Positions 7,137-9,878 of a stretch of 10,850 nt of DNA are shown here, in pieces. Where the stretch lies: NCBI GenBank assembly GCA_020061125.1, contig JAGUYV010000206.1, forward strand, positions 1 through 10,850, read 5' to 3'. The notes beneath the pieces are model-generated. The model searched no databases. It saw only the letters and a list, made by a program, of their open reading frames with translations, and had not been told where the DNA came from. The number at the start of each line of letters is the position of its first letter. Within the stretch, counting starts at the first letter, position 1. The DNA is from a bacterium. Its GTDB lineage: Bacteria > UBP15 > UBA6099 > DSWB01. Made by a program: the position numbers and the translations under genes.

Positions 7137-7170
7137 GGAACCCGGAGCCGGAAACCTGAAACCGGAAGCC
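7137..7170 (+). repeat. Degenerate heptamer array, left outer edge of repeat island
   Basis: Successive units read GGAACCC, GGAGCC, GGAAACC, TGAAACC, GGAAGCC: five diverged copies of the heptamer that is perfect at 9828-9862, in the same orientation. The array lies just upstream of the small Cys/His gene, over the region where its -35 element would be. Confidence 0.7.
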
Positions 7171-7291
7171 GAAAAAGCAAAAGCAAAGGCAATCATAACC
7201 ACGGAGTGCAAAGGGGAAAAGATTGACGCAGAGGACGCAATGGTGCGCAAAGGCCGCGGAGGAAAACCACGATATCATGGTGACCGCAAAG

Positions 7292-7560
7292 ATGTAGGGC
7301 GGCGTCGCCGAACGCCGCCGCCGGGCGCGCACAACCGCGACGAAAAGCAAAAGCAAAGGCACTGACAACCACGGAGGCCACGGAGGGCGCTGGGAAAAGC
7401 AAAGCAAAGAAAAGAAAAGAGAAGCGAAAGGATTTAACCACGAATAGCACGAAGATCACGAAGAAATACAAAGCGCGGCCAATGGCCGCGCTTTGGTTAT
7501 CTCTGGTTTTGCCTGTTGATGCGCCATGCGGCGGCGGCGTTCGGCGACGCCGCCCTACAT
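7292..7560. repeat. 32-bp perfect inverted repeat inside copy A
   Basis: The arms at 7292-7323 and 7529-7560 are exact reverse complements beginning ATGTAGGGCGGCGTCGCC; the outer ends face away from each other and enclose 205 bp. Similarity continues imperfectly inward (GGCGCGCACAAC against GGCGCATCAAC). The arms are identical in copy B, so they are better preserved than the sequence between them. They could fold into a long cruciform or RNA stem. Confidence 0.9.
7470..7494. terminator. Hairpin with 12-bp stem in copy A, possible bidirectional terminator
   Basis: AAAGCGCGGCCA (7470-7481) pairs perfectly with TGGCCGCGCTTT (7483-7494) around a single-base centre. The A-rich 5' side and short T-rich 3' side give terminator-like shape on both strands, although the T-run is only three before GG. 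In this copy it lies between divergent genes, where termination is not obviously needed, so a structural role is equally possible. Confidence 0.4.
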
Positions 7561-7752
7561 GCCAATAAGCCCTCCGAAATAAAGGGCTTTTCCTCCGTGT
7601 CTTCGTGATCGCTCCGTGCTCTCCGTGATTAAGAACCCGCTTCTCCTCCGCGTATCCGCGACTCCGCGGTGTCCTTTGATTTGATCTTTTGCCTTTGCCT
7701 TGCCTTTGCTTTTGCGGAAGCCGGACCTCCAGGCTTTTCCGCGGCCTGTCCG

Positions 7753-7781
7753 TTCCCGACACAAAGCAAATCTGATAAAAT
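7753..7781 (+). promoter_or_regulatory. Weak candidate promoter for the 450-residue gene
   Basis: TAAAAT (7776-7781) matches the -10 consensus well. A poor -35 (TTCCCG, 7753-7758) lies 17 bp upstream. It sits in unique DNA between repeat copy A and the ATG at 7887, where AT content rises. Nothing better is visible in the 164 nt between them. Confidence 0.25.
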
Positions 7782-7886
7782 ACATCTGGCAAATCATTCA
7801 TGCAATATTTCCGGGCGCAGCGGAAAGCCCCGTTTGCTTGAGAGCAAATCAAGCGGTAAAGGACAACACCGGAGGACAGCGGATTC

Positions 7887-9239
7887 ATGAAATCATCGTC
7901 CGGCGCAAAAGCGAAAAGAATCCTCAAATATGCGGGCGCGGGTCTTGGGGTGTTGTTCTTAATCGCCTGCGCCTGGGCCGCGTTTCTGGCCCTGCGCCCG
8001 GACGCGCCGCCATTCGACGACTCCGCGCTTATGCCTAATCGCCCCAGCGTCCCCGATGAGCAGAACGGTTATGTGGCGCTGGTTCATGCATTGAGAGATA
8101 TCAAATACGCTGAATCCTTGCAATATGATGCCTTTCGGAAACTATCAGATCGTGATATCCATCATTTAGAAAAGAAGTATCAGCGGCAAATATTGGATGT
8201 AAATGAAACGCTCAATTACTCGAAATCCCAATATATCCCCGATGGCGGGACTAAACAGAAGGTTCTGTTTGCTGCAAAATATCTTGCTTATCTGCAAACC
8301 GATCTTGCTCAACGGGAATTTCGAATCGGAAAGCAAGCCGCTGCAATAAACAGAGTCCAATGGTCTCTGAACATAGCGAAGATACTCTTGAATTCGCGAG
8401 GAGACAGGCATCATCTAATGACGGGTTTGAATATCGCATTTAATTCACTCCAAACAATCAACGGTATTGTCACATCCAATCCTGTACACAGAAAAGGTAT
8501 TGATTCGTTTGCTTACATGATATCAAAGTGCCCAGTAGACAATGCACAATGGGTGCATGCAATACAGCAGGATTATGTACAATCTGTACCCGATAGTGAT
8601 ACTGGTCTCTACATTGAAGAATTTGCGTACAGGGCATTTCTGAAGTCGAACATCATCCATCAACAATTGTCATCGGTTTATATTGACGCTTTGCATTTAG
8701 CCGATGAGCCGCATTTATCGAACACAGAAAACAAGATACAAGAAGCCATTGACAATGCATGTAAAGAATTCAATGGCCATTTCTTCATTCTTCATTCGGT
8801 TCTTGATCCCAACAGAGCGTATTCAGACATTCTGAAATGTAAATTCATCTCTCATTATCTCTACGAGGCAAAAGTATACTTTATCTTGTCAAGCAGTATG
8901 CGCATGACGCAGGTAAAATTGGCGGTCTTGGCGTACCGGATGGACCACGGGGAACTGCCCCGCAAGCTGGACGCGCTGGTTCCCGAGTATCTGGACGCCA
9001 TTCCTTCGGACCCGTTCACGGGCAAGCCTCTACTTTACGATGCGAAAAAGGGCGTGATCTATTCCGCGGGATTCGATTCCACGGACAACGGCGGCGAGGC
9101 CGGGCTGTTCATATTGGAGGGCGATTATTCGCCGAATGATTTCAGGGAACAGAAAGATCTCGTGCTGAAAATTGACGGACCTGTGAAGAAAGAACGCGCA
9201 AAGGCAAAGAAAAGAATACCAGGCAAGGAAAAGGATTGA
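7887..9239 (+). CDS. Membrane-anchored protein of unknown function with GspG-like C-terminal motif
   Basis: 450 residues. GGAGGA at 7871-7876 precedes the ATG by 10 nt. Residues 1-10 are basic and 11-36 form one membrane helix, so the bulk probably lies outside the cytoplasm. Residues 41-62 (PFDDSALMPNRPSVPDEQNG) and 338-384 (RMTQVKLAVLAYRMDHGELP..LVPEYLDAIPSDPFTGKPLLY) resemble patterns I associate with uncharacterised proteins of Planctomycetota/Lentisphaerota. The second resembles the C-terminal part of type II secretion/pseudopilin-like proteins without their N-methylation signal. The middle (about 67-335) is helical and unrecognised. Residues 432-449 form a Lys-rich tail. Codon composition is mosaic: the ends are GC-rich and the middle AT-rich. 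The gene is bracketed by two long direct repeats and is the only plus-strand gene here. The molecular function is unknown. Confidence 0.85.
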   Translation: MKSSSGAKAKRILKYAGAGLGVLFLIACAWAAFLALRPDAPPFDDSALMPNRPSVPDEQNGYVALVHALRDIKYAESLQYDAFRKLSDRDIHHLEKKYQRQILDVNETLNYSKSQYIPDGGTKQKVLFAAKYLAYLQTDLAQREFRIGKQAAAINRVQWSLNIAKILLNSRGDRHHLMTGLNIAFNSLQTINGIVTSNPVHRKGIDSFAYMISKCPVDNAQWVHAIQQDYVQSVPDSDTGLYIEEFAYRAFLKSNIIHQQLSSVYIDALHLADEPHLSNTENKIQEAIDNACKEFNGHFFILHSVLDPNRAYSDILKCKFISHYLYEAKVYFILSSSMRMTQVKLAVLAYRMDHGELPRKLDALVPEYLDAIPSDPFTGKPLLYDAKKGVIYSAGFDSTDNGGEAGLFILEGDYSPNDFREQKDLVLKIDGPVKKERAKAKKRIPGKEKD

Positions 9240-9384
9240 TCCACGAAGGGTGCCAAGAAAACGAAGAAAAGCAAAGGCGCGGCAATGACAACCACGGAGT
9301 GCAAAGGGGAAAAAATTGACGCAGAGGACGCAGTGGCGCGCAAAGGCCGCGGAGGAAAACCACGATATCATGGTGACCGCAAAG

Positions 9385-9648
9385 ATGTAGGGCGGCGTCG
9401 CCGAACGCCGCCGCCGGGCGCGCACAACCGCTAAGAAAAGCAAAAGCAAAGGCAATGACAACCAGGGAGGCCACGGAGGGCGCTGGGAAAAGCAAAGCAA
9501 AGAAAAGAAAAGCGAAAGGATTTAACCACGAATAGCACGAAGATCACGAAGAAATACAAAGCGCGGCCAATGGCCGCGCTTTGGTTATCGCTGTTTTAGC
9601 CTGTTGATGCGCCATGCGGCGGCGGCGTTCGGCGACGCCGCCCTACAT
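9385..9648. repeat. 32-bp perfect inverted repeat inside copy B
   Basis: Arms at 9385-9416 and 9617-9648 are the same as in copy A and remain perfect complements of each other, enclosing 200 bp. Neither copy has a mismatch in either arm, although the copies differ at about 4% of core positions. Confidence 0.9.
9558..9582. terminator. Hairpin with 12-bp stem in copy B, possible bidirectional terminator
   Basis: The sequence is identical to the copy A hairpin (arms 9558-9569 and 9571-9582). Here it lies between two convergent genes, where a bidirectional terminator would be useful. The U-tract is short (UUUGG), so termination efficiency is uncertain. Confidence 0.45.
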
Positions 9649-9774
9649 GCCAATAAGCCCTCCGAAATAAAGGGCTTTTCCTCCGTGTTTTCGTGATCGC
9701 TCCGTGCTCTCCGTGATAAAATGCCCGCTTCCACTCCGCGTCTCCGCGACTCCGCGGTGTCCTTTGATTTAATC

Positions 9775-9827
9775 TTTTGCCTTTGCTTTGCCTTTGCCTT
9801 TGCCTTTGCTTTTGCTTTTGCTTTTGC
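9775..9827 (+). repeat. Tandem hexamer array (CTTTGC/TTTTGC)
   Basis: Nine consecutive units of CTTTGC or TTTTGC run without interruption, one of them 5 nt long. The matching tract in copy A (7687-7715) has only five units, one again shortened, so the array varies in copy number. On the other strand it reads GCAAAA/GCAAAG, the same motif as the left-end tracts, making the hexamers inverted relative to each other at the two ends of each repeat copy. Confidence 0.95.
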
Positions 9828-9862
9828 GGAAGCCGGAAGCCGGAAGCCGGAAGCCGGAAGCC
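9828..9862 (+). repeat. Tandem heptamer array, five perfect GGAAGCC units
   Basis: Five exact copies of GGAAGCC are followed by GGATCC. The array directly abuts the hexamer array and forms the right outer edge of the island. Copy A has only one perfect unit at the equivalent place (7716-7722). The orientation matches the degenerate array at 7137-7170. Confidence 0.95.
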
Positions 9863-9878
9863 GGATCCCCGGCTGCAA

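Follow-up and report, generated by a model that had tools for sequence, protein, structure and literature searches.

Paired REP-dimer mosaics bracketing a single gene in a bacterial genome: probable origin by local duplication or gene conversion

The window (the whole stretch of DNA analysed, 10,850 nucleotides, which is the complete contig C417 of the host MAG) contains two long, near-identical direct repeats, A and B, with one plus-strand gene between them. We consider it probable that A and B are intergenic mosaics containing REP elements, that they were paired by local duplication or gene conversion, and that the enclosed gene is a bystander. The preliminary description of this DNA had regarded the island as a possible non-autonomous or recombination-driven cassette, a view that is displaced by the finding that the central module of each repeat is a GTAG REP hairpin and that RAYT genes are encoded elsewhere in the same genome. 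The island is thereby explained by a known system, that of REPs and RAYTs, and the range of this system now takes in a bacterial order about which little is known and which has several REPtrons with REP subfamilies to match. The case also illustrates how neighbouring intergenic gaps can acquire long, near-identical repeats resembling a gene cassette.

The two copies and their setting

The core of copy A (7188-7716) and that of copy B (9281-9803) are in direct orientation with a spacing of 2088-2093 bp, and 500 of their 523 aligned bases are identical, the alignment having an internal gap of 5 bases and leaving one end base unpaired; the longest exact runs common to both are 94, 90 and 80 nt. 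Looser extents are about 7137-7735 for A and 9240-9865 for B, both on the plus strand. The similarity stops within TTTGCC and CGGAAGC tracts, which at the edge of copy B (9774-9865, plus strand) consist of TTTGCC hexamers followed by CGGAAGC heptamers (100% match). Copy A is flanked by a divergent small Cys-rich ORF on the minus strand (start at about 7097) and by the enclosed plus-strand gene (7887-9239), whereas copy B sits between convergent genes, and the REP copies in the window are intergenic. The layout given in the preliminary description, i.e., two long direct repeats round a single plus-strand gene, the other identifiable genes on the minus strand, and A and B in a divergent and a convergent gap, respectively, is borne out by these data.

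A search of the 4.1-Mb genome found the whole core at this locus only, the next-best match after A and B being 77% over about 165 bp, together with approximately 90 partial matches of 70-100% identity. The cassette proposal had been staked on the repeat recurring elsewhere, which holds for its modules, found genome-wide, and fails for the full 529-bp unit, which is unique. The repeat had no match in Rfam or in searches of plasmids and viral contigs.

Internal architecture of the mosaics

Both copies are nested palindromes (fold z of -8.6 for A and -7.8 for B), an architecture that the preliminary description had missed along with a perfect 32-nt inverted repeat. From the outside inwards, a copy consists of CGGAAGC and AAAGGC tracts, CCACGGAG-type nonamers, the 32-nt inverted repeat (7292-7323 and 7529-7560 in copy A), and, at the centre, a GC-rich palindrome. 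Within the 32-nt repeat lies GTAGGGCGGCGTCGCCGAACGCCGCC, in which GTAG is followed directly by an 8-bp hairpin, and each copy thus carries two inverted 26-nt hairpins of the form GTAG-GGCGGCGT-CGCCGA-ACGCCGCC. In copy A these lie at 7294-7319 on the plus strand and at 7533-7558 on the minus strand, with GTAG outermost and a 213-bp spacer between them; in copy B they lie at 9387-9412 (plus) and 9621-9646 (minus). The spacer of copy A holds the GC-rich palindrome CAAAGCGCGGCCAATGGCCGCGCTTTG (7469-7495), which is terminator-like on both strands, and its counterpart in copy B is at 9557-9583. Copy A also has a nonamer arm AACCACGGAGGCCACGGAG at 7367-7385 on the plus strand, a partial arm at 7197-7206 and a reverse-complement arm at 7612-7627, and copy B has an arm at 9700-9715.

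A GTAG directly followed by a hairpin is the defining form of the GTAG REP, and a pair with GTAG ends facing outwards is a head-to-head dimer in the terminology of the same study (PMC3733652). The hairpins of A and B have GTAG directly 5' of a palindrome within the 20-40 nt range, and the inverted doublet is predicted to fold as one hairpin in both copies, as in a REPIN or BIME.

The REP family and its RAYTs

A search with the family pattern GTAGGGCGNNNTCRCCGMANNNCGCC gave 63 exact matches in the host genome, spread over many contigs, 0-3 in each of six genomes of the same order, and none in 110 more distant genomes, while the reversed pattern, used as a control, has none in any genome searched. 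Stems in the host genome vary in ways that still pair (GCGT/ACGC, GCAT/ATGC, CGGT/ACCG and GGGT/ACCC). Full complementarity at the three positions left free by the pattern was observed in 33 of 35 matches in the stretches fetched from the host genome and in 116 of 131 matches from other genomes. When only distinct sequences of the other genomes were considered, 10 of 25 were fully paired at these positions, vs. 3.8 expected by shuffling (maximum 9 in 2000 shuffles). The exact 26-nt REP has no match in GTDB contigs; the degenerate family pattern matches at least 111 stretches there, mostly from Opitutae.

The preliminary description reported no transposase, which is correct for the window and incorrect for the genome, where four Y1_Tnp genes were found, all outside the window. 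Three of the four exceed the NCBIfam threshold for REP-associated tyrosine transposases, our basis for calling them RAYTs, and their HUH motif and tyrosine motif (YxxxNP) are conserved. Each of these three genes has REPs of the family within 500 bp, and the chance of finding REPs beside three of four Y1 genes is about 6e-5. The RAYT gene on contig C84 has one REP on each side, in inverted orientation, and its product aligns with TnpA-REP (PDB 4er8, E 6e-5); a genome of the same order and another family (G004) encodes a RAYT 42% identical to it, again with inverted REPs on both sides. Taken together, the GTAG hairpins, their dispersed copies and their association with RAYT genes identify A and B as REP-dimer (BIME/REPIN-like) intergenic mosaics. 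Two similar RAYT genes, on contigs C79 and C406 of the host genome (loci L125 and L124), are flanked by REPs of a second subfamily, GTAGGGCGGGGTCACCGCACCCCGCC, in which some copies carry the tag GCAG.

Relation to known repeat systems

With the GTAG REP superfamily, the present elements share the GTAG tag, the 8-bp stem, dimers with GTAG on the outside, complementary stem changes between subfamilies, and RAYT genes flanked by repeats. Several GTAG REP families are known from Opitutus terrae (Di Nocera et al. 2013, PMC3733652), and the same pattern was found here in many Opitutae records. In contrast, the present host belongs to another lineage, the surrounding mosaics are longer, and the spacer is 213 bp, whereas dimer spacers are usually 20-100 bp (PMC3733652). 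REP dimers inside long palindromes have been described in Anabaena variabilis (PMC3733652). The predicted single-hairpin fold of the doublets and the duplication together with flanks recall REPINs and BIMEs, near-identical REPINs having been observed in tandem with their flanks included (Bertels and Rainey 2011, PMC3116915). Unlike in those systems, a whole gene lies between A and B and the copy number is in the tens rather than the hundreds; since the 213-bp spacer of copy A also exceeds the short spacers of REPINs and BIMEs (20-100 bp), we speak of a REP-dimer mosaic and not of a typical REPIN. The HUH Y1 proteins, whose genes have nearby REPs on either side, resemble the REPtron and its TnpA-REP (PMC8266576; PDB 4er8), although the REP described here is nearer to the perfect-palindrome type, and cleavage of the single-stranded REP by the RAYT would be expected by analogy with other species.

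Origin of the pair

The retrieved REP-bearing elements were compared all against all, and pairs on the same contig were set against pairs on different contigs by label permutation. Same-contig pairs average 119 bits (with the window left out) vs. 48 bits for different contigs, and none of 5000 permutations reaches the observed value, an excess that may be inflated in a MAG of 4.12 Mb, 513 contigs and 78.8% completeness because assembly from short reads drops dispersed repeats that are nearly identical and favours local duplicates. Near-tandem direct duplicates recur at four further loci (L053, L048, L041 and L039). At L053 (3177-3658), a REP-bearing segment is present as a near-tandem direct duplicate, 85% alike over 225 bp and 262 bp apart. 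Because elements on the same contig are far more alike, the most suitable reading of A and B is local direct duplication or conversion. That a single gene is bracketed would follow from mosaics occupying successive intergenic gaps and from gene density, as at L052, where a minus-strand gene has a mosaic on each side, the two being 82% alike over 177 bp.

The following course of events is proposed. To judge from studies of other species, RAYT HUH transposases whose genes lie elsewhere in the genome most likely spread the REPs via single-stranded REP hairpins. Each mosaic has a head-to-head REP dimer with its structured 213-bp spacer within further palindromic simple-sequence arms, and one such mosaic was most likely duplicated or converted into the neighbouring intergenic gap, the edges of the duplicated mosaic probably falling in the AAAGGC/TTTGCC and CGGAAGC tracts, while the enclosed gene would be a bystander. 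REP transposition alone is insufficient as an explanation, since the unit present in two copies spans about 530 bp, more than a REP dimer. Further points weigh against this scheme, namely that the 213-bp spacer is longer than usual for dimers, that copy A occupies a gap between divergent genes, where REPs are less often found than between convergent genes or genes of the same direction, and that the expansion of the arms is left unaccounted for.

The enclosed gene

The gene at 7887-9239 (plus strand) encodes a protein of 450 aa with an N-terminal membrane-helix-like segment and no match to a Pfam or NCBIfam family that reaches the cutoff. A PDB match to a Photorhabdus lectin (E 5e-4) was rejected, as it covers 50 residues and no single stretch passes the threshold, and a single-sequence AlphaFold model is poor (pLDDT 43). 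Distant homologues occur in two genomes of the same order, G004, where the similarity is 25% over nearly the full length and the homologue has two in-frame stops, and G002. Both lie on contigs without any REP among the matches listed, and nothing shows that the gene is cargo of A and B. In an empty-site synteny comparison, gltA and the tolC-like gene were on different contigs in relatives. The middle of the gene (8050-8950) has about 41% GC vs. 52-56% in its ends, and is possibly a foreign or fast-evolving segment. At 9170-9239, the C-terminal codons continue into AAAGGC-type repeat sequence, suggesting that the simple-sequence tract has lengthened the reading frame.

Alternative explanations

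Direct repeats of 529 bp at 95% identity are long enough for RecA exchange. With exact runs of up to 94 nt, RecA-type exchange between A and B would be possible in principle, so the preliminary description was right to see them as possible substrates for homologous recombination, while its further step, a cassette whose 2.09-kb gene segment excises, circularises or amplifies and is maintained thereby, finds no positive support. The AT-rich middle of the gene would suit such a cassette; the unit, however, has no second instance in the genome, and the gene at L052 is bracketed likewise by other mosaics, which points to elements in successive gaps as the source of the bracketing, and we therefore regard the cassette as unlikely. 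A composite transposon, with A and B as terminal elements that move the enclosed gene as one unit, could draw on the near-identity of the flanking elements and on the RAYTs of the host genome. It is hardly credible given that REPs are scattered over the genome singly or as dimers, that the block of A, gene and B is present once, at a single location, and that the outer edges end in simple-sequence tracts with no target duplication visible; moreover, TnpA-REP is regarded in the literature as domesticated, there being no evidence that it moves itself (PMC8266576).

That the gene is falsely bracketed, owing to one repeat having been collapsed or misjoined in assembly, might be suspected in a MAG fragmented into 513 contigs. 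The copies nevertheless have 23 differing positions and an indel of 5 bases, and none of their exact shared runs exceeds 94 nt, such that reads of usual length would separate A from B, and the reading frames on the flanks are intact; an artefact of this kind is accordingly very improbable. Local duplication or conversion of a REP-dimer mosaic remains our preferred reading.

The nonamer arms as a separate repeat family

The nonamer arm motif of A and B, ACCACRGAGNNCACRGAG, is found at 7367-7385, 7612-7627 and 9700-9715 of the window and at loci L266-L285. It has 31 occurrences in the host genome and is absent from all six genomes of the same order, whereas among 241 sampled bacterial genomes it is present in 31, from about 30 unrelated families; its reversed control has 2 matches in total over the sampled genomes. 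Among listed pairs less than 200 bp apart, a hand count gave 16 in plus-then-minus order and none in minus-then-plus order, indicating that the copies form elements with inverted arms, and such arms are directly visible in sequences from eight genomes. Y1_Tnp is present in 27 of the 31 genomes with the motif vs. 118 of the 210 without it (p 6e-4), an association that could stem from general richness in mobile DNA, and no inverted pair was found beside a Y1 transposase in 20 loci. No description of these arms was found in the literature. We tentatively suggest, as a possibility rather than a likelihood, that the inverted arms, with ACCAC outermost, represent a bacteria-wide, patchy and seemingly undescribed non-autonomous palindromic family, spread by some factor (perhaps Y1 transposases) or by inter-phylum transfer; on this view, A and B would combine REP dimers with members of the family into large composites. 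The cross-phylum motif could mark a sizeable unnamed repeat family.
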